Assembly (NCBI RefSeq): GCF_004363695.1
Contig: NZ_SNZC01000001.1
Location: 618,431 to 682,430 of the forward strand
Direction of reading: 5' to 3'
DNA: 64,000 bases
Origin: Flavobacterium cheniae
Lineage (GTDB): Bacteria; Bacteroidota; Bacteroidia; Flavobacteriales; Flavobacteriaceae
In this document: positions 1,588 through 31,984 of the stretch, piece after piece
Position numbering within the stretch: position 1 is the first letter of the stretch
Layout of the letters: each line of letters opens with the position of its first letter
Notes under the pieces: generated by a model
Databases searched by the model: none
What the model saw: only the letters and a program-made list of their open reading frames with translations
Told to the model about the DNA's origin: nothing
Program-made: the position numbers and the translations under genes

Positions 1588-2286
1588 TTATTTATTTAAC
1601 TTTAATGTCTTAAAAGTATTATTCAAAACATTAACATAAAGTAAACCTCCATCAAAATTAGATTCAATACCGAGTATAATTTTGACTACCTCATTTGACA
1701 TTAAACTACCAATCATTCCACATACTGGACTATTTATACCCTTTGATTCACAAGAATCTGCTTGTAAAAGTGTTTTAATATCAAACAAATCCTGATACTG
1801 AAATTTATTTTTATAATGTAGAAGTGTAATATATCCTTGCCAATCTGAAACTGCTCCATGGACTAAAGGAATTTCGTTGGCAAAACAATTTTTATCGATT
1901 ATTAGTCTTGTATTTAAATTATCAGTACAGTCACAAACAATGGAATAATTTTTTATTATTTCATCAAAATTACTACTCGTTAACTCTTCATCATAAGCAC
2001 AAATAGTCAGATGTTCGTTTTGGTTTTTTAATTTTGAAGTCAACACTAATGCTTTACTCTTTCCCAAATCATTTGAAGAATATAAAAACTGTCGATGTAA
2101 ATTTGTCTCTTCAATTGTATCAAAATCAACAATTCCAATCTTACCAACCCCCATTGCAACCAAATAAGTAGCTACTACTGTTCCTAGCCCTCCTGCTCCA
2201 ACTACTAAAACGCTAGCTTGACTTATTTTTTGTTGCCCTTTTTCTCCAATTTCAGGTAATTGAATTTGTTGTTTATATCTTTTCAC
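1588..2286 (-). CDS. E1-like (ThiF/MoeB family) adenylyltransferase of a ubiquitin-like module
   Basis: This 232-residue protein has the complete Rossmann adenylation core. The glycine-rich loop VVGAGGLGT is near residues 28-36, with DFD at 54-56, NLHRQ at 62-66 and CDCTDN near 118-123, followed by HGAVSDWQG. ThiF/MoeB enzymes adenylate the C-terminal Gly-Gly of small beta-grasp proteins. The usual paired CxxC zinc cysteines are missing: only SCESKG...PVCG near 178-190 remains, and no CxxC lies near the C terminus, so the catalytic cysteine is uncertain. The start is GTG at 2286, overlapping the TAG stop of the preceding DUF4132 gene by one base (TAGTG), which implies translational coupling. 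Its likely substrate is the Gly-Gly-ending protein encoded two genes upstream. It is the last gene of the ten-gene operon. Confidence 0.85.
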   Translation of the reverse strand: MKRYKQQIQLPEIGEKGQQKISQASVLVVGAGGLGTVVATYLVAMGVGKIGIVDFDTIEETNLHRQFLYSSNDLGKSKALVLTSKLKNQNEHLTICAYDEELTSSNFDEIIKNYSIVCDCTDNLNTRLIIDKNCFANEIPLVHGAVSDWQGYITLLHYKNKFQYQDLFDIKTLLQADSCESKGINSPVCGMIGSLMSNEVVKIILGIESNFDGGLLYVNVLNNTFKTLKLNK

Positions 2287-4865: not shown

Positions 4866-4875
4866 GAATATTATT

Positions 4876-5265
4876 TTATCCTCCTACTAAAGGTGTTAAT
4901 TTTACAAAAGATATTTTGGATGTACTTTTAAGCACAACTTGTTGCTCTAATTCTTCTAATTGTTCATTATCAACCAAAACGAAAAATCCATTTTTTTGGA
5001 AAGCATCTAAAGCTATGTAAACTTGCTTTTCAACATCGATTAATTGTTTAGGTTTTAACTTGTAGCCATTTAAAGTCCGTTCAGCTTCTTTTGGTTCTAT
5101 TAAACCGTTAAAATATTGAGGCAAACGTTTGTTATAATTTTCAATTTCTATGGAAACTCGTTTAGTTATCAAATCTCTAACAGTCAATGAATCTGATTCT
5201 AACGATATTTCAAATTGATTAGTTATGGTTCCGTTTAAAAGCTCATCGCAAATTACTATATTCAT
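4876..5265 (-). CDS. Ubiquitin-like beta-grasp protein with exposed C-terminal Gly-Gly
   Basis: The frame also has a TTG two codons upstream (5271), but ATG at 5265, preceded by AAGGAATAAT, is the better start, giving 129 residues. An N-terminal strand-turn-strand (NQFEISLES) is followed by a helix (TVRDLITKRVSIEI), as in a beta-grasp fold. The C-terminal stretch FFVLVDNEQLEELEQ, then ISFVKLTPLVGG, has the ThiS/MoaD/ubiquitin-like pattern and ends exactly in Gly-Gly. No tail follows the Gly-Gly, so no processing peptidase should be needed. At about 129 residues it is longer than ThiS or MoaD, with an insert around residues 45-90. It lies 15 nt after mcrC and 10 nt before the DUF4132 gene. Sequence identity to known Ubls cannot be judged by eye; the call rests on the fold pattern, the tail and the E1 partner. 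Confidence 0.75.
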   Translation of the reverse strand: MNIVICDELLNGTITNQFEISLESDSLTVRDLITKRVSIEIENYNKRLPQYFNGLIEPKEAERTLNGYKLKPKQLIDVEKQVYIALDAFQKNGFFVLVDNEQLEELEQQVVLKSTSKISFVKLTPLVGG

Positions 5266-5280
5266 AAACAAAATTATTTA

Positions 5281-6699
5281 TTATTCCTTTTTTTGAATTA
5301 GAGGCAACATAACCCCTAATTTATAAACTTTATGGTAAGCTTTAATTTTATTTTCTTCTTTATTTTTTTGATTTATTATGTTTTCCAAACTAAAATCCAT
5401 AATACCCTTTTCCATATCAGGATAAATAATCAAACAATCAATGTTTCTATCATCTGTTACTTTTAACTTCTCTCTTACTTTATTCAGCCTTGCATAACCT
5501 GCAACTTGACGAATATCTTGATGTAAATGACCGTTTTGATAATGCAATTTATATTTAGCATCTATGACCATTTGAAAATCTGGTTTAGATACTAAAATAT
5601 CTAAAAAATTTCCATGAGTAGAAAATTGATAATGTATCGCTTTTCTATCGGTTGGGTTAGCTTCAATCATTTTACTATAGACATATAACTCAAACAATCT
5701 TGGCATATCTATCCAAAAAGGAGGAGTTGCTACTTTATCGTTAGTAGTTTGGGTAATGTTATAAGCAAATCTTTTCAATATCTTTTTTCCTAAATCTATT
5801 GCAGTTGCATAATCTTTATAAAATGGATTGTGCTTAATATGCTTTAATTCGTAATCATTGACTTGATTAGAAATAAGTTCAAAAGTAGGTCTACAATAAT
5901 TGATGGTATGTTGTAATTCTATAAATTTATCACCGAAAAGCTTTTCATGATTTTCGATATAGCTGCTGGCAAATTGCAATACTTTTTTTAGAAAACGATT
6001 TTCTGGATGATCTTCACCAAATTGTTGGTATTCACAAAAGGTATTCGTGAATCTATTTTTAAAAACATTTTGTTTAATGTGTTGACCCACTAAAATTTTA
6101 CCCTTAACTCTATTGTTTAAGTTTTCTTGAACTTTATAATAATTTTTCTTCAGCCCCTGCCTAACAATAGCTTTAACTAATTGAAGATACTGAACAATCA
6201 AAAACGGTGTTAGTTTGTCTTCTTTTTGTCTAATTTCAATTGGTTTAGCAACCCAATCTATTTGTACCAAACCCTTTAATTCATCATTACTTTCAGAAAC
6301 ATAAGTAACTTGTAATAACATTTTTAAATAATCCAATTCTTTAATTTCTGTTGGAATATTTTCAGAATCATCTTTTAAAATTTCTTCTTCAGAATCAGTA
6401 ATTGTATCAAATATTTTAGCTGTTTTGGTATTGAGTTTAGGTTCTACATATAAATATCTACCTGTGTTACCTAACCAATCTAAGCCAATACAATAATCGG
6501 CTTTTAAGCTAAAACCAAGCTCATTTTTTTCATAAACAAAACAATGACTACTATTATTAAAGACCTTTGAACTGAAAGAATCAAACAAATCATAATTGGA
6601 ATGATTGATTTTAATTATTCCATCAACTTCCTTTTCTTGATCCTTTTCATCAAAAAAATGAATTTTTAAATTCTTATGTTCATGTAAACGAAAGCCCAT
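5281..6699 (-). CDS. mcrC: McrC-like nuclease subunit of a McrBC system
   Basis: This 472-residue protein carries a PD-(D/E)XK nuclease core in its C-terminal third: FLDILVSKPDFQMVIDAKYK, with the catalytic Asp and the DxK pair, then QDIRQVAGYARL. The rest looks like the McrC N-terminal region that contacts the McrB ring. McrC is the DNA-cleaving partner of the GTP-driven McrB motor, which cuts DNA carrying modified bases. Its ATG overlaps the mcrB stop by one base (TAATG), so the pair is translationally coupled. The Ubl gene follows after 15 nt. Confidence 0.85.
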   Translation of the reverse strand: MGFRLHEHKNLKIHFFDEKDQEKEVDGIIKINHSNYDLFDSFSSKVFNNSSHCFVYEKNELGFSLKADYCIGLDWLGNTGRYLYVEPKLNTKTAKIFDTITDSEEEILKDDSENIPTEIKELDYLKMLLQVTYVSESNDELKGLVQIDWVAKPIEIRQKEDKLTPFLIVQYLQLVKAIVRQGLKKNYYKVQENLNNRVKGKILVGQHIKQNVFKNRFTNTFCEYQQFGEDHPENRFLKKVLQFASSYIENHEKLFGDKFIELQHTINYCRPTFELISNQVNDYELKHIKHNPFYKDYATAIDLGKKILKRFAYNITQTTNDKVATPPFWIDMPRLFELYVYSKMIEANPTDRKAIHYQFSTHGNFLDILVSKPDFQMVIDAKYKLHYQNGHLHQDIRQVAGYARLNKVREKLKVTDDRNIDCLIIYPDMEKGIMDFSLENIINQKNKEENKIKAYHKVYKLGVMLPLIQKKE

Positions 6700-8750
6700 T
6701 AAATAGATGTTTCTAATTGTTCTATCTTGTTAACGATGTCATTACCAATTAAAATACCATCTTTTACATACTCTAGTAAAATTGGTTTAATTTCATATTC
6801 TAAACGCATTTGGAAATCAATAGGCTTTGTTTTATCCTCTTTCCCTTTTTCATCTTTTTCGTATTGTTGAATAAAGTAAGAATGCCCCAATACAACATCT
6901 TTAGGATCAAACTCTTTGGATAAATTGACCGAATGCGTTTTATAGTCATCAGTTGTGAATAGTGATTTAACTGCTAAAAATAGTTGATTATCAAATACTA
7001 CCTCTTCATTACTTAAATCTTTAGGTAAAACATTTACAAAAGCAAAACGTCTTCTAATAGCATAATCAATATGTCCTACTGAGCGGTCGGCTGTGTTCAT
7101 AGTTCCTATGATGTACAAGTTTTGTGGCAATATTAACTCTTTTCCTTCTACATCATACATGCTTTCTACAGCTTCTCCTCTATATTCTAATGCATAAATT
7201 AACTCACCCAAAACAGAAGATAAGTTTGCGCGGTTAATTTCATCAACAATGAGAACGTAATTCTTCTGATCAATTTTTTTCTCAGTTTTTATTGAATTAT
7301 TTTCTAAATTTTCATCTTCAATAAACTTCTGAAAAAGATTAAGAACTCTAACAAAATAACTAGCATGCTGCCTTGCAAGACCTGAAATTTTTTGATTATT
7401 TTTTATATGCTTCCTAACAGAATCCCCAGCAAAATATGACTGTAATATATCTTTAAATAAAATCCTATTTCCATTTTTCAACCAACCATCATTTAAACCT
7501 TTATAACGAAACGCATATTCGTCGTCTGAAGAAATTAATCCTACATTATCCGTTAATGAATAAAAACCATTTGCTTTTTCAATTTCATCATTTAAATACT
7601 CAACAAAATTTTCAAAAAGTTCCTTAACCTTAACTTCTTTAGTAATAGCAACTACATCTTTATTACTATCAACAAAATTATCTAAAGCATTTTTTGCAAA
7701 AGCTCCCAAAGTTTTATTTTCTGCCTCATATAAAATTCCTTCGCCATCAGAATTTGGCTTTGCTACAATACCTCTTACAAAATCCTCATAAGTGTAAGAT
7801 GGATGAAATTGAATTATCTTAAATTGTTCTTCAAATAACTCTTCAAACTTGAATTCATTCAAATGTTTTGCAACCGCTAATGAATAAGGATCCATACCAT
7901 TTTTATTGGAGGGCTCTATTCCTTTAGTCAATTGATTATATTTCTCAATAATTTCATTGTAAGAAGGGTTCCAATCTTGAGTTGTTCTATCGCTTATTAA
8001 ACTAACAGAATCATCATTTAGAGCTTTAATGGTATAATACTCCTTTGCTCCGCTTGCATTAGCTATTTTGCTTCCTACAACAAGTTTGTTTTTTATTATA
8101 TCAGAAGTTAAACCAATCATTTCTTTAGCAATTAATTTTGCCTCTCTTGTTTTACCAGTTCCAGGAGGACCTTGTAAAATGATTTGTTTTTTGTATTTTA
8201 ATAAATCTCTGTTTTTATAGATACTAGACATTAACTTTTCTATTTTTTCGTTTTTTTGGAATGTTTCAAATCTTTGCTTAAAAGTTGTAAAAAAATCAAT
8301 AAATTCTTCTGAAATTTCATCTGCTTCAAATAACTTTAATTTTTCTAAAGAATACTCCTTACCAGAATTTACTCTTCTTGTTGGTTTTTCCCAATAAATA
8401 AACTCATCTTGATATAAACCAGTTATTTGATTATTTTTCCATCTTGCTAAAACATTTAAACCGGTACCATCCCAATTTAAATAACATTTAACAGATTTAT
8501 AATTATTTCCAAAATTACCCTGAACATTGATACAGATTTTACCACAAGAATATGATTCCCAACCTTTGATTTGATTTTGTATACCCGCACCATCATAACC
8601 TTGACCTGTCATTTTAAAACTTCCATCATCAACATATGATTTTATATACTTGTCGTAACCAATAAAAGTGCTTTGTTTATTTTGAATCCAATCTAAATGG
8701 GAAACAAAATATTCTAATAGTTTTTTAAATTTTAAATACTCTTCTAGCAT
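6699..8750 (-). CDS. mcrB: McrB-like AAA+ GTPase with an unusual N-terminal recognition domain
   Basis: This 683-residue protein has Walker A GPPGTGKT near 194-201, Walker B VLIVDEINRAN near 499-509 and the McrB/MoxR signature GTMNTADRS near 549-557, followed by an RRRF arginine segment. A characteristic HPSYTYEDFVRG lies near 316-327. Residues 1 to about 125 form a separate beta-rich domain (MTGQGYDGAGIQ, KGWESYSCGKICINV) that should set DNA specificity. I do not recognise it as the EVE or DUF3578-type domains common in McrB. The protein should form a GTP-powered ring that translocates DNA and activates McrC. It is 20 nt downstream of the HNH gene, in the same operon. Confidence 0.88.
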   Translation of the reverse strand: MLEEYLKFKKLLEYFVSHLDWIQNKQSTFIGYDKYIKSYVDDGSFKMTGQGYDGAGIQNQIKGWESYSCGKICINVQGNFGNNYKSVKCYLNWDGTGLNVLARWKNNQITGLYQDEFIYWEKPTRRVNSGKEYSLEKLKLFEADEISEEFIDFFTTFKQRFETFQKNEKIEKLMSSIYKNRDLLKYKKQIILQGPPGTGKTREAKLIAKEMIGLTSDIIKNKLVVGSKIANASGAKEYYTIKALNDDSVSLISDRTTQDWNPSYNEIIEKYNQLTKGIEPSNKNGMDPYSLAVAKHLNEFKFEELFEEQFKIIQFHPSYTYEDFVRGIVAKPNSDGEGILYEAENKTLGAFAKNALDNFVDSNKDVVAITKEVKVKELFENFVEYLNDEIEKANGFYSLTDNVGLISSDDEYAFRYKGLNDGWLKNGNRILFKDILQSYFAGDSVRKHIKNNQKISGLARQHASYFVRVLNLFQKFIEDENLENNSIKTEKKIDQKNYVLIVDEINRANLSSVLGELIYALEYRGEAVESMYDVEGKELILPQNLYIIGTMNTADRSVGHIDYAIRRRFAFVNVLPKDLSNEEVVFDNQLFLAVKSLFTTDDYKTHSVNLSKEFDPKDVVLGHSYFIQQYEKDEKGKEDKTKPIDFQMRLEYEIKPILLEYVKDGILIGNDIVNKIEQLETSI

Positions 8751-8770
8751 TTTATTTTATGTGGTAATTT

Positions 8771-9796
8771 TTATAATAATTTCATTTGCTTACAAACATC
8801 TCTTTTTATTTTTCCGAGATGTTTTTTATTTATCTGCTCAGGACCTAGTGGTACTCCTTGACTATTTAATAAAGTAATATTACTTAATTCCACACTACCA
8901 GCTAATCCTTTGAATTGACTTAATAAAGATCTTTGTACTTTGGGAGATCGATGTTTAAATAAATTTATTAAATCATATAATATATCTCTTGTAGCTCCTT
9001 GATTATATCTATCCAAAATATCAAAATCAACTATTTGATTTTCATCATGAGTTGTTAAGTTATTAACACTAATTAATATTTCAGAAGAATCATTAGGAAT
9101 TATTGAATTAACATAAAATTTAAAATGTTCATCAAAACTTTTATGAAATGGATTGAAGTGAGTTGTAATATTAAAATCTTTTTCACCTTTCAATGTAGCA
9201 TTACATGTTGAACAACCTGGAATTAAATTAAAAAAAGATAGCGATAAATATGGGTACCTTGATCTTGGGTAAAAATGATCAAGTTGATATAACCTATTAG
9301 TTAGTGCATAGCCCGTAACTAAATCAATTTTTTGAATATTTTGCACTTCATCTTTATTACAATAAGGACAATAATTTATATTAAATTGTCTAAAATGAAA
9401 TGCTGGTTTATCAGTATTGCGATACCATTCGTAACTAATTACATCTCTAACAATTTTTCCAAAATCATTTAAAGTTGCAGAATTATAACTAACATCATTA
9501 GATAAAAAATTAATACCAAACTCAGAATCAATATCAGAAATAATAGTTTGCAATTCATCAGGGCGAGAAATTATAATTCTCTTAAGATTTTCAAAATCAT
9601 TATCTAACAAATAGGTCCAAAACCTTACCCTTTGAGGAAAAAGAATATCTAAAATAAGTTGACTTTGGATTCTACCTATTAGAGATTCCCTTTTTTTATA
9701 GAATCCATTAGCATTTTTCTTGAAAGTCAAAAAAGTATAATGTTCAAGTGCTAGCTCATCCAATTCTACTGTTGTATTATCATCAATTTTTACCAT
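8771..9796 (-). CDS. HNH endonuclease, PtuB-like, of a Septu-like pair
   Basis: This is a 341-residue protein. Zinc-binding CPYC near 143-146, the catalytic LDHFYPRSRYP near 172-182 and a second zinc pair GCSTCN near 194-199 make a complete His-Asn-His nuclease of the type found in PtuB and related TIGR02646-like proteins. The N-terminal 130 residues are helical and unassigned. Its ATG overlaps the end of the upstream ATPase gene by 14 nt, a tight pairing typical of Septu PtuA-PtuB. It should be the DNA- or RNA-cleaving component controlled by the ATPase. At 341 residues it is longer than typical PtuB, so a Septu variant or another ATPase/HNH defence system is possible. Confidence 0.75.
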   Translation of the reverse strand: MVKIDDNTTVELDELALEHYTFLTFKKNANGFYKKRESLIGRIQSQLILDILFPQRVRFWTYLLDNDFENLKRIIISRPDELQTIISDIDSEFGINFLSNDVSYNSATLNDFGKIVRDVISYEWYRNTDKPAFHFRQFNINYCPYCNKDEVQNIQKIDLVTGYALTNRLYQLDHFYPRSRYPYLSLSFFNLIPGCSTCNATLKGEKDFNITTHFNPFHKSFDEHFKFYVNSIIPNDSSEILISVNNLTTHDENQIVDFDILDRYNQGATRDILYDLINLFKHRSPKVQRSLLSQFKGLAGSVELSNITLLNSQGVPLGPEQINKKHLGKIKRDVCKQMKLL

Positions 9797-11489
9797 CCCT
9801 CAAATTTTCTATATGAATGTTGATAAATTCATCACCAATACTATCTATAACTAACATATCCTCTTTACTTAATGGAATTTTATTGTTGATTTTATCGATT
9901 AATTTTTGAATTTTATTGGCAGCAAAACGACTAATTAATCCTCCTTCCATAAAAAATGCATCAATGTAAAGTTCTCCTATATTCCCGCCAAAAGTTTTTA
10001 CACTTTCATCATTATCAATAATAATTGAATGATTTTCAGAATCAACCCCTAAAAAAATTAAATTTTGCCTAGGTAAATCAGAAACTAAAAATGGAGAGTG
10101 AGATGTTAAAACAAATTGATAATTCGCAGAATTGAACATAGGTATTAATTTAACCAATTTATAAAAGAAATCAGCTTGCCACTTTGGATGTAAATATAAA
10201 TCTCCTTCATCAATACATATTAAAATATTATCAGCTTTAATACTTTTAATCTCAAAGCGTAATAATGAAAATAAGTCAAGATATGCCTTGTGTCCCGAAC
10301 TTAATCCAAGCCAATCAAGTTTGAATTTATTACTTGTATCTATAAAATTAAAAAAATCTTCATCGAGTCGACTAGCTGATTGATTAAATTCGAGAATATA
10401 ATCTTCAGTTTTTCTGTTTCTAGCTCCTTCAGTATTGATTTCCAATTTTTTTGAATCTATAAATTGTTCAAACTTCTCTAATAATTTTATATTTTCATGT
10501 ATTTTTTCTAGTTCTTTTAATTTTAGTTTGCTACTAAAAACACCTTCAAAACTTTCTATTATTATAGATTCAGTCCATTTTAACCATAATTTAGTAATAT
10601 CAAACTTACTTTTATACGTTAGTTTTATATTTTCAATTTCGTTAATAAGATTGTCTGTATGTTTATTAATTAAGTCATCAAAAAAAATATCATCAAAACG
10701 TGAATATCTAATTTCACTTAATAAATCTGTAACAATACTAAATAGTAAAAAATAATATAATTTTTGCTTTGAAGGTCTCGTTGATTTTATATCAGACCAT
10801 AAAGTTTTTAATTCTTTTGAAAAAAAATCATTTTTACTAAAATTTGAATTTATTCCTCTTTCAAAATATGCTGAATTAAAGAAATTTATTTTTGGAGTTA
10901 TAATTACTTTTGTTGGTAACGGAATTTCAGAACTTTCAAATAGATCGCTTCTAATAAACTGCAATTGTTTTACAAAATCTGAAGTTTTACTCCTATTTGG
11001 CCAATTGTACTTGGGATAACGATTATTTGCAGATAAGTTAGATACTTTATTATCAAAAATATGAGTTCTTTCATCATATACATTTGAAAAATAAATAACC
11101 TTTAAATTATCTAAGTCTCCTTTATACTCTATGAATGAAATTGGGAAATTTGCATCTATTTTTATAAGTTCTTCAAAACTATAATAACAAATGAATTTAT
11201 CGTCTTGTTTTATAATTATAAAAAAATCAGAATTTAAACTTGTTTTACCCCCTTTAACAAGTTTACATACTAATTCAAGTAAATTACTTTTACCAGTGCC
11301 GTTTTTTCCAATAAAACCTGTAACTTCACAAATATCGTTACCAAAAAAATTATCATTAATTTTATCTTCTTTACTTATGAATAATTCATTATTGATATAT
11401 CTAAATTTTTCATGACTAGATAAATTAACTCCAAAATTTTGAAAATTTCTAAATTCTGAAACCCATATGTAACAAATTTTAAAACTCAT
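9783..11489 (-). CDS. AAA_15/SMC-like ATPase, PtuA-like, of a Septu-like pair
   Basis: ATG at 11489 is preferred over the TTG three codons upstream (11498). The protein has an ABC/SMC-type head. Walker A GKNGTGKS (about residue 64 counting from the TTG) comes first. The signature WLGLSSGHKAYLDL, Walker B ILICIDEGDLYLHPKWQ and the switch histidine VLTSHSPFLVSDLP come after a long helical insert. Overlap with an HNH nuclease gene defines a PtuA/PtuB-like anti-phage pair, in which the ATPase senses infection and gates the nuclease. The start lies 5 nt after the hsdS stop, so it is expressed with the restriction genes. Confidence 0.78.
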   Translation of the reverse strand: MSFKICYIWVSEFRNFQNFGVNLSSHEKFRYINNELFISKEDKINDNFFGNDICEVTGFIGKNGTGKSNLLELVCKLVKGGKTSLNSDFFIIIKQDDKFICYYSFEELIKIDANFPISFIEYKGDLDNLKVIYFSNVYDERTHIFDNKVSNLSANNRYPKYNWPNRSKTSDFVKQLQFIRSDLFESSEIPLPTKVIITPKINFFNSAYFERGINSNFSKNDFFSKELKTLWSDIKSTRPSKQKLYYFLLFSIVTDLLSEIRYSRFDDIFFDDLINKHTDNLINEIENIKLTYKSKFDITKLWLKWTESIIIESFEGVFSSKLKLKELEKIHENIKLLEKFEQFIDSKKLEINTEGARNRKTEDYILEFNQSASRLDEDFFNFIDTSNKFKLDWLGLSSGHKAYLDLFSLLRFEIKSIKADNILICIDEGDLYLHPKWQADFFYKLVKLIPMFNSANYQFVLTSHSPFLVSDLPRQNLIFLGVDSENHSIIIDNDESVKTFGGNIGELYIDAFFMEGGLISRFAANKIQKLIDKINNKIPLSKEDMLVIDSIGDEFINIHIENLRDGKN

Positions 11490-11494
11490 TTTAA

Positions 11495-12850
11495 TCAATA
11501 TTTAGTTTTGTTCTCCGCAACCATCCCCAACTCTTCCTTAACATCACCCACCGTTACCTGACCATTCATCAACATAGGCAACAACCAATCACGAAGCGAA
11601 GCGAGTTCTTGGTTTTCTTTTAGATTTTTTTCTTTTTTAATTTGAATTGGCTTCATAAAATCGTAGAATTTCTCAGCTAATTCAATAGGTGGAATTGCTG
11701 TATAATGAGTACTTACAAATGATTCAAACAATAAATTCTTTATACCACTTGTTTTTCCTTCATAACCAAATAAAACGCCAGCATCATATATACTATTCCA
11801 TTGAAATACGAAATTGTAGAAATAGTATTTACTTTTTAATGTAACAGCTTTACAAAAGTTAGAACAAATTATTGGTGCATCAAAGCGATGAAGTGTTTCT
11901 TCTGTAATGTATGCTAATCTACCAGTTGATTGAACGGGACTTCCTCCTGAAATTTCTACAATTAAATCATAAGGATCTAATGTTTTGAATAAATTTTTTT
12001 CTAAAATATAACGTTCTGGAGTTTTTAATTCTCCTTTCCCATTTAAGCCATTGATGTCTGCTCCTCTAACGCAATATACTTTCTGATTATAGTTTCCTTC
12101 TTCTTGTTCTTTTCCCCAGTCACCACTTTTATCATTATTTATAAATGAAGATAAGGTATCAACTTCCCATCCCTCAGGAATCTCCGTTTTCAACTCCTCA
12201 TTCCAAACCATTTTACCACCTGAAGATTTATATGGTTTTCCATTCTCATTAGGAAAATCAAACTGCACAAACCAATAATCATACAAGGTCTTTGCCATAG
12301 CTTCTAACTCGGCGTTGATTTTGTTATTCAATTCAATTTTAGCATCTAAATCAGAAAGAACTTTGGCAATTTTTTGTTGCTCTAATAATGGTTTATATAT
12401 TATATCTATTTCACCAAAATTTTTTAGAATAATTCTTGGCAATGCACTACCAGAAACATATTTTTTTGCAACTGTTTCTTTTACAGAATTAGAATGTAAA
12501 TAGTATTTTAAATAATCAGGGGAGATTTTTTTTAGGTTAGGTCTAAGAATTCCTATAGATGATAAAATTGCTTGCTTTTTTTCTTCTTTAATTACAAAAA
12601 CATGTTTTAAATAACTTCCATCTTTTGCTATTAAGACATCATTCAGTAAGGGAACACAATCGTTCCTTAACATCTTTTCATATTCCTCCTCTGATATATA
12701 TTTACAATCAAGATATGAAAATCCATTGTGTTCCATATCTTTTACAGATAGCATGGGTAAACCATCAGTAATACCGACAGGACTATAATGAGAGCCGTCA
12801 GTAATTCTATCACAAACGGAATTTAATTTTACAAAGTTCAAATTACTCAT
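11495..12850 (-). CDS. hsdS: Type I restriction-modification specificity subunit HsdS
   Basis: This 451-residue protein has two target-recognition domains separated by conserved helical spacers. The first half ends with LEQQKIAKVLSDLDAKIELN, and EAMAKTLYDYWFVQFDFPNENGKP introduces the second domain (IPEGWEVDTLSSF). HsdS sets the bipartite DNA target and bridges two HsdM subunits. Its ATG overlaps the end of hsdM by 8 nt. The protein is full length with both TRDs, so the system looks intact. The two halves determine a target that cannot be predicted by eye. Confidence 0.93.
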   Translation of the reverse strand: MSNLNFVKLNSVCDRITDGSHYSPVGITDGLPMLSVKDMEHNGFSYLDCKYISEEEYEKMLRNDCVPLLNDVLIAKDGSYLKHVFVIKEEKKQAILSSIGILRPNLKKISPDYLKYYLHSNSVKETVAKKYVSGSALPRIILKNFGEIDIIYKPLLEQQKIAKVLSDLDAKIELNNKINAELEAMAKTLYDYWFVQFDFPNENGKPYKSSGGKMVWNEELKTEIPEGWEVDTLSSFINNDKSGDWGKEQEEGNYNQKVYCVRGADINGLNGKGELKTPERYILEKNLFKTLDPYDLIVEISGGSPVQSTGRLAYITEETLHRFDAPIICSNFCKAVTLKSKYYFYNFVFQWNSIYDAGVLFGYEGKTSGIKNLLFESFVSTHYTAIPPIELAEKFYDFMKPIQIKKEKNLKENQELASLRDWLLPMLMNGQVTVGDVKEELGMVAENKTKY

Positions 12851-14459
12851 ATTTCAAACCTTTCAAATTATTCTGTATTTCTTTTTCTAGCTCTTTACTT
12901 TCCGCAAATAAATTAGCCAGATTACTTTCAAAGGTTTTCATTTTAGCAGTAAACTCATCAGATGTTATATCCACATGTTCAATTTTCACTTCAAAATATT
13001 GTCCAGCGGAAAACGAATAATTTTTAGCTTCAATTTCGGCTTTGGTTACTACCACTGATAAATCTTCAACGACTTGTTTGTTATTAAACGTATCAATAAT
13101 TAATTGTTCTTCCTTTGGAGTTAAAACGGTACGTTGGTTTTTACCTTCTTTTACAGTTTCTCCTAATTTAGAAGCATCTAATAAAACTATATGCTCGCTA
13201 TCGGCTTCTTTGTCTAAAAACAATACGGAAACATTGGTTCCTGTGCTGGCAAAAATGTTAGATGGCATACTCACTACACCTCGTAACCAACCTTTGGTAA
13301 TCAAACGTTCTCTTATTTTCTTTTCAATACCACTTTGAGCTGTGATAAATCCTGTTGGTAACACAATAGCGGCTTTACCTGTATCACTCAAACTAAACAT
13401 GATGTGCTGGATGAATAACAAATAAATCGCCATCGATTCTTTTTTAGTTTTCGGGATATTGGGAATCCCTGCAAAGAATCGTTTTTTGAAGGCATCTTTA
13501 TCTAAATCGGCATGAAAATCAGAGAAATCCAATTTAAATGGAGGATTCGAAACTATATAATCAAACTTATCCTTTAAATACGTCGGTTGTGCTATGGTAT
13601 TGGTTTTAATGATATTCGGAATCGAATGCGTTAAATTATTCAACACCAAATTCAAACGCAACATATTACTCGATTTCTGCGAAATATCTTCCGAGTAAAT
13701 CGTACAATTTTCTTCTCCAATTTGGTGCGCTAAACTCATTAAAAGCGTCCCCGAACCCGCACTGGGGTCGTACACTTTTACTCCTTTTACAGGGGTTGGC
13801 ACCATAATTTGTGCCATTATACGCGCTACCGCATGAGGCGTATAGTATTCCGCATATTTCCCACCTGAGTCGGTATTGTAATCTTTAATTAAGTATTCAA
13901 AAATAGTAGCAAAGAAATCGTATTTTTGCTCGAACATTTCTTCAAAACTAAATTCAAACAACTTATTAATTAACGCTTTCGCAAAAGCATCACGTTGCGA
14001 ACTATCCGAAATAAACTGCGTTAATTCATCAAACAAAGTATCCTTTGCTCCCGAGAATGATTTTACCGAAAATACTTCGGCATTTTCTATCGAAATCTGA
14101 CGTAAGGTATCATCAAAGGTTTTCGCAAAATCACTGTCGTTTTGTTTCACAAACAAATGCGAAATCAAATGTTCTGGACGTAAACGAGGAATATTTGGGT
14201 CTAAACTTGCAATTAAGAATTGGTATTCGTCTTCGCTTAAATCCAATAAAGCTTTGGAGAAATTCTCCGCTTCGTCTAATTCTGGTTTTTCTCGTTTCAC
14301 CGCATAGCGAAACTTATCATTTAAGAACTTGTATAAAAATACTTGGGTAATAATTTTAAATTCGTTTCCATCATTGCCCAAGCCATAATTCGCACACACA
14401 CTTTTTAAGTTGTCAATAAGTGCTTTTGTTTTGGTCATGAAGTTAATATCCTGCGTCAT
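12843..14459 (-). CDS. hsdM: Type I restriction-modification DNA methyltransferase HsdM
   Basis: This 538-residue N6-adenine methyltransferase has an N-terminal helical HsdM domain, YYTP near 205-208, the SAM-binding motif I DPSAGSGTLL near 231-240 and catalytic NPPF near 305-308. It methylates adenines in the HsdS-specified site and forms the M2S core on which HsdR assembles. It starts 5 nt after the hsdR stop and overlaps hsdS by 8 nt. Gene order is R-M-S on the minus strand. No disruption is seen. Confidence 0.95.
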   Translation of the reverse strand: MTQDINFMTKTKALIDNLKSVCANYGLGNDGNEFKIITQVFLYKFLNDKFRYAVKREKPELDEAENFSKALLDLSEDEYQFLIASLDPNIPRLRPEHLISHLFVKQNDSDFAKTFDDTLRQISIENAEVFSVKSFSGAKDTLFDELTQFISDSSQRDAFAKALINKLFEFSFEEMFEQKYDFFATIFEYLIKDYNTDSGGKYAEYYTPHAVARIMAQIMVPTPVKGVKVYDPSAGSGTLLMSLAHQIGEENCTIYSEDISQKSSNMLRLNLVLNNLTHSIPNIIKTNTIAQPTYLKDKFDYIVSNPPFKLDFSDFHADLDKDAFKKRFFAGIPNIPKTKKESMAIYLLFIQHIMFSLSDTGKAAIVLPTGFITAQSGIEKKIRERLITKGWLRGVVSMPSNIFASTGTNVSVLFLDKEADSEHIVLLDASKLGETVKEGKNQRTVLTPKEEQLIIDTFNNKQVVEDLSVVVTKAEIEAKNYSFSAGQYFEVKIEHVDITSDEFTAKMKTFESNLANLFAESKELEKEIQNNLKGLKYE

Positions 14460-14464
14460 TTTTT

Positions 14465-17400
14465 CTATCGGTATTGGTATTGTTGTAAATATTCGTTCAC
14501 TATTAAATTATTGATGGTTTCAGTGGTTGAAAAATCCAACGGAATGTTTTCATTTTTCTTAAATTCCTGAACCACTAATTGCAATAAATAACGTTTAAAG
14601 AAAGCTTCATTCTTCATAATATCTTCTTGTCCTTCTAATTTGTTATCTACATGTTGTTTTACTTGCATTAAGGCATTATGCAATTGCATTTCTTTAGCGT
14701 TAAGTGTTCCTTTTTCACTCAAGCGCTTATGAATGCGTGTATATTTTTCATCATTGATATACTTAGCTTTTAACAGTGCATTTTTACGATTCAACTCTTT
14801 GGCTTGTTCGTATATTTTTTGGAGTAAATGCATGTTTTCAATCATGTCGGCTTGCGTAACTTCACTCAAATTTTTCTTTTTGAAAATACGTTCTAGCTCT
14901 TCACGCAAACTTACAAATTGTGGATCGATTTGGTCAAAATTATTTTGAAGAGATTCCCTTGTTTTGCGTAATATATTTTTGAACTCATCAGCTAATACTA
15001 ACTCGCTTTCATCAACTTTGATAAATTGAAAGATGACATCTTCTAAAGCGGTGTTCAATAAATTAGCGGAAGCTTCTTCATTACCAATGCTATCCACAAA
15101 ATTTAAGTTGTCTAATCGGCTTTGTGCTTCTAGTAATAAGCGATTCCAAATATCAAAATCAGCAACACCATCTAAAGCTTCATAACCGTTAACTGCAATA
15201 ATATTTTTCAATTCTTTTGCAGTACGCAAGGCTTTAATCAAGCGCAGCAACTCGTTTTTATCGGTAAGTTGTGCTATTTGCTGTGAGAACAACTCTCTAT
15301 TTTGCGTATCGTAATGGAAAAGCGTCTCTTTAATCTCCTGAATTTCCTGTTGAATTTCTTCTTCCGTTTTGAACAAGTGCGAATACATTTCCATTTCATC
15401 GCCTAGTTGTTCTTGCAACTCATCAAAGTACATTTTGTTGGTTCGGTCAAAAGCTTTTGAAATATCAGCAAAATCAACCACATAACCGTATTGATATTTT
15501 TTATATGGTCTGTTAACACGAGTCAAGGTTTGTAATAAATTGTGGTCTTGAATAACACGAGCCAAATACAATTTCTTTAATCGTTTGGCATCAAAACCAG
15601 TCAGCAACATGTTGTAAACAAATAACAAATCAACCTTTCCTTTTTTGTAGGTAGATATTAATTCTTTACGAATGGCTTTGTCGTTTTCATCATGTAAGAT
15701 TAAAGCAGCTGTTAATTTTGGTTCATCGTGATTACCATATCTTTCAGGCGGTTCGGCTGCCATCAAAATACTAGCATCGGTTTCTTGTTCTCCATACTTT
15801 TCCTCAAACAATCGAAACAATTCCTTCGCTTGATTCGCAGAATCACAAACTACCATTCCTCCTAAAGAAGTGTCTTGTTGTTCACGTCTGAATTTGATTA
15901 AATCAGTTACGATATAATCTAGTAATGGTTGCGCAAATTTTGGATGCGCATAAATCTGACGTGTGCTAATATCGCCTTGTAATACTTTGATTTGATCCAT
16001 TACTTCTTTCATTTCCATTTTGAAGTTACCTTCAATTTGTTCACGAATTAAACGTAACGTATAACCATCAGCAATCGACATGTTGTAGTAATACTTGTGA
16101 AAGTAATTACCAAACAACATTTTAGAATCGTATTCTTTAGCAACTTCTTTTAATAATGGCGTTCCAGTTAAAGCAATAATTACAGCAGAACGGTCTGAAT
16201 TAATCAGATTCGCTAAATAATTCCCTTTAGGATTATAACTTCTGTGTGCTTCATCTAAGAAATAAACACGTTGAATATTAATGTCATAGCTAATATCTTT
16301 ATTTGCAATGGCATCCTCCGAAAATTTCTGAATATTCACCACCGTAATTTCAGGAACTCCGCTATCATTATGAATAGCACCCACTACTTTTAAGTCAGCA
16401 ATAAAATCTTGTTTAGAATTAACTTGTTTTACTTTCAAACCTCTATTAGCAAATTCACTCGAAGCCTGAATTAATAAATCCAATCGGTCAACTATAAAAT
16501 AGAATTTTGGAATTACTTGTTTCTTGGCGTAATAATCCGTTAAGTGTTTAACGTTGTAATATGCAAGTGCAGTTTTTCCTGAACCTTGCGTATGCCAAAT
16601 AATTCCTTTGTTTTGTCCTGTGTCAATTTTAGTTGCAATTGCTTGTGTGGCAAACAACTGAGGATAACGCATGATATGCTTTTGATACGCTACTTTTCCT
16701 GTTACTTCTTCTTCCACATAAACAATAGCGTATTGTAAAATAAATTTCAAACGTTCTTTACTAAACAAAGAAGTTAAAATTCGATTCGTTGGCGTATTCG
16801 ATTGTTTATTAGTAATGTATTCAGGACTATTTTTAATAACAATCAAATTGTTATCTTTTAAAAGTTCGTTTTCGGTCTTATCGTCAATATCCTTCAACTT
16901 TTGTTGAACAGGATAATCAGCATCTTCTCTAAAATAATTGAAATTAACATTTTCATAAGCTGGCGTAGCATAGAAAGCTCCGAAAATCGGTTCTACTATT
17001 CCATCTTCATATTCCATATTGTTAGAGAAAACCAACAACTGTGTAATATTAGCAAAACGTCTAAAATGTTTATTTTTAAAACGCTGATTAATTCGAGTTC
17101 TTTCTTTGATAACGCCCTCTTGATTATGAGGTTTTTTCACTTCAATAAAAGCCAAAGGCATTCCATTGATTAAAACCGTAATATCAGGTCGAAATTCTTC
17201 GTCTTCAGATTTACAAGTTAATTCGGTGGTAACGTGAAATTCGTTGTTGCTGAAATTTTCAAAATCAATTAATTTAACTCCTGAAGTTGAAGTCAATCTC
17301 TCGTAAAACTTTTTTCCCAAGTCTTCATAATCTAACTCCAGATTGATTTCATCTAAAATTCGTTGCGCTTCTTGTTCAGTTATTCCATTCAAAGCCGAAA

Positions 17401-17539
17401 TCTTAGGAATGAAAATCGAATAGAAAATATTATTACTTTCAATTCTATTTTGCTCATTCAAAGGTAAATACTGATACCCCAAACGCATTAAATGTAATAA
17501 GGCTGGTATTTTTACACGAGAATCTTCGTTGAATTTCAT
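14465..17539 (-). CDS. hsdR: Type I restriction enzyme motor/nuclease subunit HsdR
   Basis: This 1024-residue protein has an N-terminal PD-(D/E)XK nuclease with Asp near 119 and FIEVKK near 131-136. An SF2 translocase follows, with Walker A TQGSGKT near 317-323, DEAHRSYNP as the DEAD-box motif and later helicase motifs (ALTGTPLL, LLTGFDAKRLKKLYLAR, QTLTRVNRPYKKYQYGYVVDF). A helical C-terminal domain docks on the methyltransferase. It cleaves unmodified DNA after translocation. It is the first gene of the ten-gene minus-strand operon; its ATG (17539) lies about 30 nt from a well-formed promoter at 17571-17601. Length and motif set are complete. Confidence 0.95.
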   Translation of the reverse strand: MKFNEDSRVKIPALLHLMRLGYQYLPLNEQNRIESNNIFYSIFIPKISALNGITEQEAQRILDEINLELDYEDLGKKFYERLTSTSGVKLIDFENFSNNEFHVTTELTCKSEDEEFRPDITVLINGMPLAFIEVKKPHNQEGVIKERTRINQRFKNKHFRRFANITQLLVFSNNMEYEDGIVEPIFGAFYATPAYENVNFNYFREDADYPVQQKLKDIDDKTENELLKDNNLIVIKNSPEYITNKQSNTPTNRILTSLFSKERLKFILQYAIVYVEEEVTGKVAYQKHIMRYPQLFATQAIATKIDTGQNKGIIWHTQGSGKTALAYYNVKHLTDYYAKKQVIPKFYFIVDRLDLLIQASSEFANRGLKVKQVNSKQDFIADLKVVGAIHNDSGVPEITVVNIQKFSEDAIANKDISYDINIQRVYFLDEAHRSYNPKGNYLANLINSDRSAVIIALTGTPLLKEVAKEYDSKMLFGNYFHKYYYNMSIADGYTLRLIREQIEGNFKMEMKEVMDQIKVLQGDISTRQIYAHPKFAQPLLDYIVTDLIKFRREQQDTSLGGMVVCDSANQAKELFRLFEEKYGEQETDASILMAAEPPERYGNHDEPKLTAALILHDENDKAIRKELISTYKKGKVDLLFVYNMLLTGFDAKRLKKLYLARVIQDHNLLQTLTRVNRPYKKYQYGYVVDFADISKAFDRTNKMYFDELQEQLGDEMEMYSHLFKTEEEIQQEIQEIKETLFHYDTQNRELFSQQIAQLTDKNELLRLIKALRTAKELKNIIAVNGYEALDGVADFDIWNRLLLEAQSRLDNLNFVDSIGNEEASANLLNTALEDVIFQFIKVDESELVLADEFKNILRKTRESLQNNFDQIDPQFVSLREELERIFKKKNLSEVTQADMIENMHLLQKIYEQAKELNRKNALLKAKYINDEKYTRIHKRLSEKGTLNAKEMQLHNALMQVKQHVDNKLEGQEDIMKNEAFFKRYLLQLVVQEFKKNENIPLDFSTTETINNLIVNEYLQQYQYR

Positions 17540-24393: not shown

Positions 24394-24526
24394 ATTTAAC
24401 GGTTTGCAGATTTGCGATGGGCGGGTTTTTCAGCACAAATGTTCATTCGAAGACTTGAGCTTTCGGCTGCAACTAATCTGTCTACGAAGCACGAAACCCC
24501 ACCTATTGCAAATGTGCTGTTATGAG
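24394..24526 (-). repeat. attC-like imperfect inverted repeat after the 24536-25120 gene
   Basis: The outer arms 24398-24428 and 24494-24522 are imperfect complements with single extrahelical bases (TTTGCAGATTTGCGATGGG against CACCTATTGCAAATGTGCTG). They flank a 65-bp middle. On the minus strand the far end reads GTTAAAT, which matches the integron core site GTTRRRY, and the near end reads ATAAC. Size, asymmetry and location directly after a gene stop match integron attC sites. The segment is richer in G+C than its neighbours. The near-end core site is imperfect and no integron integrase lies in the window. Confidence 0.55.
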
Positions 24527-24535
24527 GTCTTTTTT

Positions 24536-25120
24536 TTATTTCTTGTCGGGGTCAATCAGTTCTATCATGTTGTAAAGTACTTCTGCACTGTCAACTGGCA
24601 CATTGCATCTGTATTTGTCTGCTAAACTTATGTCAAGCATTTGTCTTTCAAATTTCATTGCATCTTGTCCTTTAATGTCCGCTCGAATAAAGACTTTATT
24701 GTCTTTTTGGAAAAAGCAAAAATTGTAGTCGTGTTGATGGCTACGATTAAACTTAAATTGTCTAAAGGAGAAATAATATTTGTTGTCATAAGTGATTAAG
24801 AAATCATTTTCTCCATACTCGTTTATCATAATGTCTTTTGCTTTGCCGTCAAACAAGACTGTATATTTTTCTCTCCTGCTAAATAAATCCGCGTCTGTCG
24901 AACGGTTAATGGTGTTGACACTAATTCCAAATTCAATTTTTACTTTGTCCGAGGTCAATGGGACATCTACTGTCACATTGATAGAATTATTGTCCCAAAT
25001 TGCGTAGTAGTCTTTGTTGATTTTCCTAAGACCAAGTCCGCCAAGAATGAGAATAAAAAGTCCTGTTATGATTAATATTCGTCTTTTCACTTTTCTGTCT
25101 AACGTTTTAGCATGCCGCAT
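24536..25120 (-). CDS. Hypothetical membrane-anchored protein on a cassette-like insert, 194 residues
   Basis: A basic N terminus is followed by one hydrophobic helix (ILIITGLFILILGGLGL, about residues 15-31), then a soluble domain without recognised motifs. The first codons overlap GTTAGAC at 25097-25103 (minus strand), a perfect GTTRRRY match, and the stop is followed by an attC-like inverted repeat. The ATG at 25120 therefore lies in the upstream junction; GTG at 25090 is an alternative start. Codon use is richer in G+C than neighbouring genes (Gly, Arg, Asp codons ending in C or G), a sign of separate origin. Confidence 0.6.
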   Translation of the reverse strand: MRHAKTLDRKVKRRILIITGLFILILGGLGLRKINKDYYAIWDNNSINVTVDVPLTSDKVKIEFGISVNTINRSTDADLFSRREKYTVLFDGKAKDIMINEYGENDFLITYDNKYYFSFRQFKFNRSHQHDYNFCFFQKDNKVFIRADIKGQDAMKFERQMLDISLADKYRCNVPVDSAEVLYNMIELIDPDKK

Positions 25121-25144
25121 AACTTGTATATATAGTAGTTTTTA

Positions 25145-30694: not shown

Positions 30695-31984
30695 TTATCT
30701 AAAAAATTCATGTTTCGCAATTCTTTTTGCATTTTCTACTTTTTGCACTTTTACATAATTTAGAAAAACACGTTCCGATTTATGTCCGCTAATCGCCATA
30801 ATATCTTGAATAGGCATACCAGCTTTAAATGCATTTGTACAAAAAGATCTTCTTGCTGTATGTGATGAAACAAATTTATATTTTGGCAAATTATACTCCT
30901 CCATCTTATTCCCTACTGTTCTCGTTAATGAATGATTATCTGTAATTTTTGCTTTCTTACAGATTGATTTAATGTGCTCATTAATCAATCCAGAGTAAAT
31001 ATAATCTGGCAATTTCCCCTCTCGTTTTTCTATTATTGAATTCACTATTGAATTCAATGGAATAATTACAGCATTAGATGTTTTCATTTGTCTTAGTTGA
31101 AAATATTTCACATCATCTTCTTCAAATATAACTTGGTATGGCTTTTTTAATAATCCTAACATGTCTGAAACTCTTAAACCAGTATAACTACTAATTAAAA
31201 AGATGTCTCTTACACCATCTAAAATTGGATCTTTTAAATCTAATTCTTGTATTCTCTTTAATTCCTCTACGGTTAAATAAACATGATCTATTTCCTCAGT
31301 CATCTTAGAAAAATAGCCTTTTTTGAATTCATTATTGTTATGAATACCTTCTTCATAAGCATAACCTAAAATTGTTTTTAATTTTTGAATAATTGTACCA
31401 AGATAGTTTTTAGAATAATTAAGAGAAGATAAATACAATACATAATCATTATAAAATTCTCTGTTACAATCATTAAATGAAAATTTTTTCAATTTTCTAT
31501 CTTCTATATATTCTTGCAATCTGGATAAACCTGTTTTATAGGTTTTTAGTGTTCCTTGACCTAATTTTTTCTTTGTGTATGGACTATTGTGAACGGAATA
31601 ATAATCTAAGAACCATGTATAATATGAGATCAAATTACTTTTATAACTCTCAACTTTCGCTTTTTCTTTATCAGAAACACTAGTTTTACAGAAAGCATCT
31701 AACATTATTTTCTGAACAATACCTTCTGAAATATCCGTTTCATCAATTGCCGAAATTGACTTATTGAATTTATACATAGCTTCAGATAATTTTGTATTAA
31801 TGTCTGCTGCTCCAAATACTGAAGATGGAATTTTTAATCTTTCTTTTCTACTATCCCACTCTTTTGAATTCTGAATCATGTATCCTGTAGAAGTTCTTAA
31901 TCGAATAGAACCATTTGAATTTCTGTATTCAAAATTTATTGAATACTTTTTTGTACTTTTGCGAAGGTAAAATCTAATTTTCAT
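30695..31984 (-). CDS. Tyrosine site-specific integrase
   Basis: This 429-residue integrase has an N-terminal arm-binding domain (IRFYLRKSTKKYSINFEYR) and a SAM-like core-binding domain (about residues 110-215). The catalytic domain has the first Arg in SSYTGLRVSDMLGL, the HxxR box in SHTARRSFCTNAF, the second His in ISGHKSERVFLNY, and the Tyr nucleophile in that same segment. This is the common Bacteroidota integrase type of phages, conjugative and genomic islands. Chromosomal housekeeping genes begin about 290 bp upstream of its start, so it marks the right end of the island. Gene is complete. Confidence 0.93.
   Translation of the reverse strand: MKIRFYLRKSTKKYSINFEYRNSNGSIRLRTSTGYMIQNSKEWDSRKERLKIPSSVFGAADINTKLSEAMYKFNKSISAIDETDISEGIVQKIMLDAFCKTSVSDKEKAKVESYKSNLISYYTWFLDYYSVHNSPYTKKKLGQGTLKTYKTGLSRLQEYIEDRKLKKFSFNDCNREFYNDYVLYLSSLNYSKNYLGTIIQKLKTILGYAYEEGIHNNNEFKKGYFSKMTEEIDHVYLTVEELKRIQELDLKDPILDGVRDIFLISSYTGLRVSDMLGLLKKPYQVIFEEDDVKYFQLRQMKTSNAVIIPLNSIVNSIIEKREGKLPDYIYSGLINEHIKSICKKAKITDNHSLTRTVGNKMEEYNLPKYKFVSSHTARRSFCTNAFKAGMPIQDIMAISGHKSERVFLNYVKVQKVENAKRIAKHEFFR

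Follow-up and report, generated by a model that had tools for sequence, protein, structure and literature searches.

The window, the stretch of 64,000 nucleotides of Flavobacterium cheniae analysed here, likely holds a stranded single gene cassette. Judged by sequence, this cassette would belong to an integron-like system of the Bacteroidota whose recombinase, found at the head of cassette arrays in related genomes, does not appear to be an IntI. The cassette's minus-strand gene (24536-25120) has a stop codon that adjoins an imperfect inverted repeat. An earlier note on this DNA had described this repeat as 125 bp long, with GTTAAAT at its far end; we found it to span 126 bp (24397-24522), with that far end in place. 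The features of the unit are as follows.

24397 to 24522, minus strand: attC-like site of 126 bp, forming the cassette's 3' end; a member of a family spread over genus and phylum, with covariation in 30 sites and a bottom-strand fold with a 4-nt bulge.
24394 to 24400, minus strand: far-end core GTTAAAT, read on the minus strand; its TTAAAT would be host sequence.
24400 to 25122, minus strand: proposed cassette of 723 bp, with G/TT at both edges (the slash marks the edge); supported by the best start at 25123, by G+C contrast and by a length near the family median.
24536 to 25120, minus strand: cassette gene for 194 aa, with an N-terminal hydrophobic stretch (by eye) and no Pfam family; three distant homologues, two of them beside sites.
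25109 to 25123, minus strand: 5' arm GTTATGCGGCATGCT, carrying the A at position 11 that is nearly invariant in cassette starts (272 of 275 distinct starts).
24519 to 24533, minus strand: 3' arm, reverse complement GTTATGAGGTCTTTT; it pairs only partially with the 5' arm.
25123 to 25135, minus strand: host sequence CTATATATACAAG ahead of the cassette, resembling an attI core (rank 7 of 2484, score 4.5).
25097 to 25103, minus strand: GTTAGAC, the boundary given in the earlier note; present, judged a chance match and not complementary to the unit's other end.

The unit had also been described as richer in G+C than its surroundings. This holds: the cassette has 36.5% and the site 45.2%, against 26.1% and 26.0% in the 2-kb flanks, which puts the cassette at the 98th percentile among 723-bp stretches of the window. 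GTTAGAC fared less well as the 5' boundary, since the likely boundary is 25122/25123. When upstream GTT starts were compared with the reverse complement of the other end, the best was GTTATGCGGCATGCT at 25123, with 7 of 12 positions matching, and the runner-up reached 5. The window's cassette is thus most likely 24400-25122, starting with GTTATGCGG. The earlier proposal of one gene plus an attC in a cassette of about 700 bp was therefore right in kind, and it erred in the 5' boundary, in the core motif and in expecting an IntI as partner.

The repeat belongs to a large family. With the window's site as the sole query, BLAST detected copies in 13 of 60 genomes, the window's own included, and seven of 22 further BLAST matches span query base 7-9 to 133-134, which is exactly TAAC to GTTA. 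We built a covariance model (R1) from 30 sites; it gives 114 bits to the window's site, which is itself one of the 30 building sequences. In these 30 sites, 91.2% of the cells in paired columns are paired and the covariation score is 0.759, compared with a mean of 0.184 over 500 shuffles, none of which scored as high, and a maximum of 0.128 in slid controls. R1 finds sites in at least 124 of 150 genomes of the genus (E <= 1e-3; 23 candidates scored per genome) and in at least 168 of 395 genomes of the phylum (E <= 1e-6; 8 candidates scored per genome). Seven other genomes were counted too: 13 sites in G055, 23 in G155, 27 in G083, 37 in both G067 and G021, 43 in G141 and at least 150 in G095, where 143 lie within 100 kb. 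The earlier reading depended on further copies of the repeat, and these turned up both in the window's own genome, which has 10 sites (covariance model; 150 candidates scored), and as arrays in relatives. An Rfam scan of the window gave nothing at gathering scores, and blastn with the window's repeat gave one weak match in plasmids (Sphingobacterium faecium, E 6e-4) and none in phages. In two loci, L045 (genome G011) and L175 (Flavobacterium enshiense DK69), the sites in a row are about 155-160 bp long instead of 126, so that genomes seem to have site sub-families of their own.

In the relatives, genes alternate with sites, a single gene between each two, in arrays that run in one direction, as integron arrays do. 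From 383 sites we obtained 320 usable cassettes, after setting aside 10 starts and 11 ends that could not be placed and one cassette that contained Ns. Because the 383 sites come partly from overlapping stretches, we also give distinct counts, of 275 start/end pairs and 306 cassettes. The median length of the 306 distinct cassettes is 700 bp. An open reading frame of at least 50 aa is present in 275 cassettes, and in 267 of these the longest one is on the strand of the site; 31 cassettes have no reading frame of that length, and three cassettes were each seen three times among the stretches analysed. A Pfam search with 60 of 260 cassette proteins gave ParE toxins in two, plus 32 further families, those shown having one member each and including AIPR, FRG, DinB and the integron-associated Cass2.

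The two ends of a cassette are complementary to each other across the gene. For each cassette, the bases that follow the upstream site were set against the reverse-complemented bases that precede the cassette's own site. Over the 320 cassettes these arms agree in 94-97% at positions 5-9 and in 83-89% at positions 12-15, against 25-72% and 34-43% in shuffled pairs; position 16 is at background, so that the complementarity covers about 15 positions. The arm score is 11 or 12 of 12 in 218 of the 275 distinct pairs. Position 11 is peculiar, with 1% agreement: in 244 of the 275 distinct pairs the start has A where the reverse-complemented end has G, which makes an A.C on the gene strand and a T.G on the other. 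Because the variable letters of start and end match across the gene, we infer that the crossover falls before them, within G/TT, as in integrons. The core GTTRRRY proposed in the earlier note is borne out in its first four bases, as GTTR begins all 275 distinct starts. Its remainder is not, as a purine stands at position 5 in 124 of the 275 and a pyrimidine at position 7 in 111; with such variable bases after GTTR, the sites lack the R core GTTRRRY / RYYYAAC of integrons.

An attC site is also expected to fold on the bottom strand with extrahelical bases, a fold on which the earlier reading had staked itself. At the window's site the bottom strand of the gene is the plus strand, which folds at -20.6 kcal/mol (z = -1.78, 9 of 200 shuffles as good), compared with -17.1 kcal/mol for the gene strand (z = -0.76, 45 of 200 shuffles as good). 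Taken alone, then, the folding of the window's site is not unusual, and the suggested check of the bottom strand was not decisive there. The sites of the relatives do share a fold with bulges. When the circular form was modelled, the bottom strand folded more stably than the top in 295 of the 306 distinct cassettes and tied with it in one; the mean energies are -31.6 (bottom) and -26.1 kcal/mol (top). Loops were counted in the computed folds of 294 sites, 12 of the 306 cassettes having been omitted as too long. A 4-nt bulge at position 16 is found in 261 of them, a 1x1 mismatch at 24, mostly C/A, in 243, and a one-base bulge at 31 or 32 in 166. G.T pairs make up 944 of 9550 long-range pairs on the bottom strand versus 263 of 8639 on the top.

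The array of genome G067 is headed by P0001, a tyrosine recombinase of 347 aa. P0001 or relatives of 37-77% identity are present in all 12 site-bearing genomes tested, the window's own genome aside, and seven of seven genomes without listed sites have Xer-level matches only (29-36% identity). In 11 of the 12, a site follows the recombinase on the same contig within 4 kb; in the other, G009, the contig ends. Among the 395 phylum genomes, 98 have both sites and recombinase, 70 sites only, 21 the recombinase only and 206 neither (odds ratio 13.7). Proximity was counted with all 150 listed sites, part of the listed recombinases and 22 IntI entries (three of them below the cut-off), the recombinase and IntI entries being a selection made by eye to represent genomes that have listed sites. 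Counts of sites near a recombinase are minimum values: at least 38 of the 150 sites lie within 15 kb of one. For 41 of the 42 sites within 20 kb of one, the recombinase is on the 5' side. We also considered 80 named loci that encode a relative of the recombinase. Sites are present in 21, among them loci of Flavobacterium enshiense DK69, F. aciduliphilum, Algoriphagus ornithinivorans and Winogradskyella ursingii, and 45 of the 47 sites there are downstream of the recombinase on its strand; the other 59 have no site in the stretch covered. Two Chryseobacterium plasmids carry the recombinase as well (67-68% identity).

Several comparisons separate this recombinase from known types. P0001 passes the NF040815 model (230.8 against a cut-off of 220 bits) and fails TIGR02249, the integron integrase model (210.6 against 265 bits). 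The spacing between the motifs KGxKxR and HxLRHS is 58-59 residues in the array-head type (36 of 36 measured), 66 in Xer (16 of 16) and 100 in IntI (11 of 11), and the alignment of P0001 to 2a3v is interrupted at the IntI insert. In a phylogenetic tree, from which three too-short sequences were skipped and in which the branch of L146 is absurdly long, probably because of a wrong reading frame, IntI and Xer each form one well-supported group, with no array-head protein inside either; the long branches to IntI and Xer make the order of the groups unsure. A model of the F. aciduliphilum recombinase (mean pLDDT 89) has VchIntIA as its nearest structure in Foldseek, and a second fold comparison gives Z scores of 24.9 for XerA and 22.2 for VchIntIA. 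By these sequence features, the presumed partner recombinase of the sites is not an IntI.

Further recombinases were seen around the arrays. At L104 (genome G025), 9017-9241 encodes a 75-residue C-terminal remnant of the recombinase near cassettes, which looks as if it were a decayed array head. G067 has five near-equal recombinases of 328 aa, 34% identical to P0001, two of which adjoin sites (G067:C1:199653-200489 and 2170710-2171546); similar-looking tyrosine recombinases are annotated beside IS91 transposases in plasmid NZ_CP094530.1. The 328-aa recombinases are perhaps an element that targets the array.

The start of the arrays resembles an attI. In seven of ten heads the first cassette begins 81-107 bp past the stop codon of the recombinase, after a conserved CATATAAACAAG-like sequence, three of the seven having a weak start match (6-8 of 12); in the remaining three heads it begins at 178-276 bp. 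The two Chryseobacterium plasmids, NZ_CP041688.1 and NZ_CP094530.1, share 95.9% identity from the recombinase through the 107 bp that follow it, and diverge exactly after CATATAAACAAGTT, that is, at CATATAAACAAG/TT. Six sites follow downstream in NZ_CP041688.1, and none is found within the 25 kb examined in NZ_CP094530.1. These sequences suggest that, as in integrons, an attI beside the recombinase gene acts as the entry point. On plasmid L086 the attI lies about 107 bp past the recombinase, and the first matched cassette follows a short insert, at 276 bp. This insert (16152-16320), a palindrome-rich stretch of about 169 bp between the attI and the first site-bearing cassette that has no R1 match, is perhaps a gene-less cassette or another type of site.

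We therefore envisage the following for these cassettes, whose recombination we deduce from sequence patterns. The 3' site of about 126 bp, joined in the circular cassette to that cassette's first 15 or so bases, would fold as single-stranded bottom DNA into the long stem computed from the sequences, with its 4-nt bulge, C.A mismatch and, often, one-base bulge. The array-head tyrosine recombinase, distinct from both IntI and Xer, would cut and join between G and TT, and would either insert the cassette at the attI beside its own gene (CATATAAACAAG/TT) or swap cassettes between sites. Repeated insertion could build the observed arrays of one-gene cassettes in the same direction. Cassettes also occur in genomes where no recombinase gene is detected at our threshold, as in that of the window; there the gene may have been lost or may have acted from elsewhere.

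Three other explanations deserve consideration. The window could hold a canonical integron cassette, made of an attC and moved by an IntI that was lost or not assembled here. The attC-like layout, G/TT edge, bottom-strand fold and bulges all agree with this, and IntI is common elsewhere in the phylum, being above the cut-off in 105 of the 395 genomes. In addition, 10 of the 70 genomes with sites and no detected array-head recombinase do have an IntI, the other 60 having neither. Against this, IntI and sites are negatively associated (32 genomes with both, 136 with sites only, 73 with IntI only and 154 with neither; odds ratio 0.50), and no listed site, out of 150, is within 40 kb of the 22 IntI entries compared. 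Moreover, just one of the 105 IntI genomes, G502, is labelled as nearer to the window's than same phylum, and G502 is not one of the site-bearing genomes. With a core that also departs from GTTRRRY, we consider a canonical cassette unlikely.

It is somewhat less probable still that the sites are dispersed palindromic repeats or transcription terminators that follow genes and have no part in recombination. Sites do lie directly past stop codons, on the strand of the gene, and scattered single copies exist, for instance in the window's own genome. Yet a terminator has no need for a cassette start and end that are complementary across a whole gene, nor would it account for a recombinase 5' of nearly every site near one, for plasmids that diverge at the predicted base, or for whole cassettes repeated in one array. 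Least probable, in our estimation, is that the cell's own XerC/XerD move the cassettes, in the way they move the pdif modules of Acinetobacter plasmids. The window's genome, with its Xer-level proteins, 10 sites and no detected array-head recombinase, would suit this idea; but Xer-level proteins are equally present in the seven tested genomes without listed sites, whereas the array-head recombinase tracks the sites, and pdif sites, which are short, are not known to form stems of about 126 bp.

We return to the preferred reading, that of a cassette from an array-head system, and to its state in the window. No array-head recombinase was found in the window's genome at E <= 1e-55, the best match being Xer-level at 31% identity. 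The search for an IntI gene proposed in the earlier note likewise gave none above the curated cut-off; as sub-cut-off matches to the integron-integrase family occur in 14 of 14 control genomes, only the cut-off itself is informative. A genome with 10 sites and no array-head recombinase found makes the window's cassette a stranded one. Its arms match at 7 of 12 positions, compared with the 11 or 12 seen in most distinct cassettes. Ahead of it, CTATATATACAAG ranks 7th among the 2484 GTT contexts of the window in likeness to 11 attI-like sequences, with a score of 4.5 that is far below the 11.9-20.2 of the training set. The cassette protein has no Pfam family at E <= 0.01 and three distant homologues (30-36% identity) in 299 genomes of the family: one, in L110, sits in a row of four sites, another, in L111, follows a single weak site (E 1.7e-4), and the third, in L109, has no site beside its gene. 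No relatives of the protein were found in viral contigs. From all this we read the window's cassette as stranded and probably ageing. A search for an empty site, using the joined flanks as an AT-rich query against 249 genomes of the genus, returned the window itself and short or low-identity matches, none of which we read as an empty site.

Other cassettes of the same genome are similarly placed. Those in L054 and L107 begin directly after the attI-like sequences ACATATAAACGAG and ACATATAAACAAG, and no recombinase fragments were found in these two stretches; the high attI scores of both are not independent, since both sequences are included in the position matrix. In L055 (5713-8533, minus strand) four sites stand in a row without a recombinase. 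One of the L055 cassettes resembles, by eye, a ParD/ParE toxin-antitoxin pair.

Many of the array-head recombinases have an additional module. About 60 extra N-terminal residues are present in 26 of 35 readable recombinases, as recognised by a simple W..W..P motif, and they are modelled as strand-strand-helix-strand-strand-helix (pLDDT 87.5). A 580-aa protein of G104 has, by eye, three copies of the module, with a mutual identity of 16-30% and a poor alignment. Of 16 N-terminal segments, three match HARP (PF07443, best E 5.9e-7), 13 match no HARP model and 10 match DUF5710. The best PDB match of the module profile is 4o66, the HARP domain of SMARCAL1 (E 0.044), which is also first in Foldseek for the modelled module, at a non-significant level (E 0.7, prob 0.35). 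In a second fold comparison 4o66 is absent among the 50 entries listed, which shows neither presence nor absence of HARP. Whole recombinases searched against Pfam up to E 10 gave no HARP in six of six, the matches having arisen from N-terminal pieces alone. At L101, the recombinase encoded at 4302-6044 has an N-terminal module that is weakly HARP- and DUF5710-like. HARP binds structured DNA, and the module might take over from the IntI insert the reading of the folded site. We tentatively propose, while leaning somewhat against it ourselves, that the Bacteroidota have an integron lineage of their own. Its recombinases would read folded single-stranded DNA through a HARP-like module at the N-terminus, which one protein seems to carry as three tandem copies, rather than through the IntI insert, and would choose the strand by the A.C/G.T asymmetry built into the site. 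Such a HARP-like reading, if true, would be a second protein solution for structure-reading cassette capture, in a group where canonical integrons are scarce.

How does this system relate to those already known? With integrons, including the large chromosomal ones of Vibrio, it shares one-gene cassettes in one direction, the G/TT edge, complementary ends, a bottom strand that folds better and has bulged bases, a recombinase at the head with an attI-like site, and cargo of toxin-antitoxin and Cass2-like genes. It differs from them in a GTTR core followed by variable bases, in arms that are complementary over about 15 bp and almost always mismatched at position 11, and in a recombinase that scores under the IntI cut-off and often has an extra N-terminal module. 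A description in PMC9668308 has IntI as a tyrosine recombinase with an extra domain around patch III; the array-head recombinases lack this insert, as their 58-59 residues in place of 100 indicate. To judge by sequence, the window's unit is thus one that would work like an integron cassette and that stands outside the IntI-based family by both integrase insert and core. Like the CALIN and single attC sites of IntegronFinder, as these terms are used in PMC9024848, the window's site lies in a genome where no recombinase gene for it was found, and it differs from CALIN in that the partner recombinase here would not be an IntI. A CALIN comprises at least two clustered attC sites without an integrase; the window has one site and L055 four, these being called by R1 and CALIN being defined by the attC model. 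The NCBIfam entry NF040815, "site-specific tyrosine recombinase/integron integrase", includes P0001 above its cut-off, and among structural matches the archaeal XerA 5hxy ranks first or nearly so; the name covers general XerA-like recombinases, and arrays, sites and attI are not described in that entry. The likeness to the SMARCAL1 HARP domain (PF07443, 4o66) is shared by the three matching N-terminal segments and not by the other 13.

The Bacteroidota integron-like system is apparently undescribed: searches of open-licence papers gave no description of one. One account (PMC9024848) has only In0 elements seen before in Bacteroidetes, to which it adds Salinibacter ruber, besides Chlorobi and Ignavibacteriae. 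If our reading is true, a cassette-capturing system is present in about two fifths of the sampled Bacteroidota genomes (at least 168 of 395), plasmids carry it too, and a search that relies on IntI would overlook it. It would open up a large stock of cassette genes, many of which fall into no known family, and the protein feature that enables the use of folded single strands would become directly testable, with two unlike solutions to compare.

The window has other features of mobile and defence-related kinds. A second type of tyrosine recombinase, a 429-aa protein with Phage_int_SAM_5, is encoded on the minus strand at 30695-31984; it scores 45.8 bits to NF040815 and is not of the array-head type. 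A defence-like cluster identified with PADLOC models occupies 1588-17539 on the minus strand. It consists of an E1/ThiF-like protein (1588-2286), a PDC-M62A/B-like pair (8771-11498) and a type I restriction-modification set (11495-17539), and 5281-8750 is, by eye, McrBC-like.
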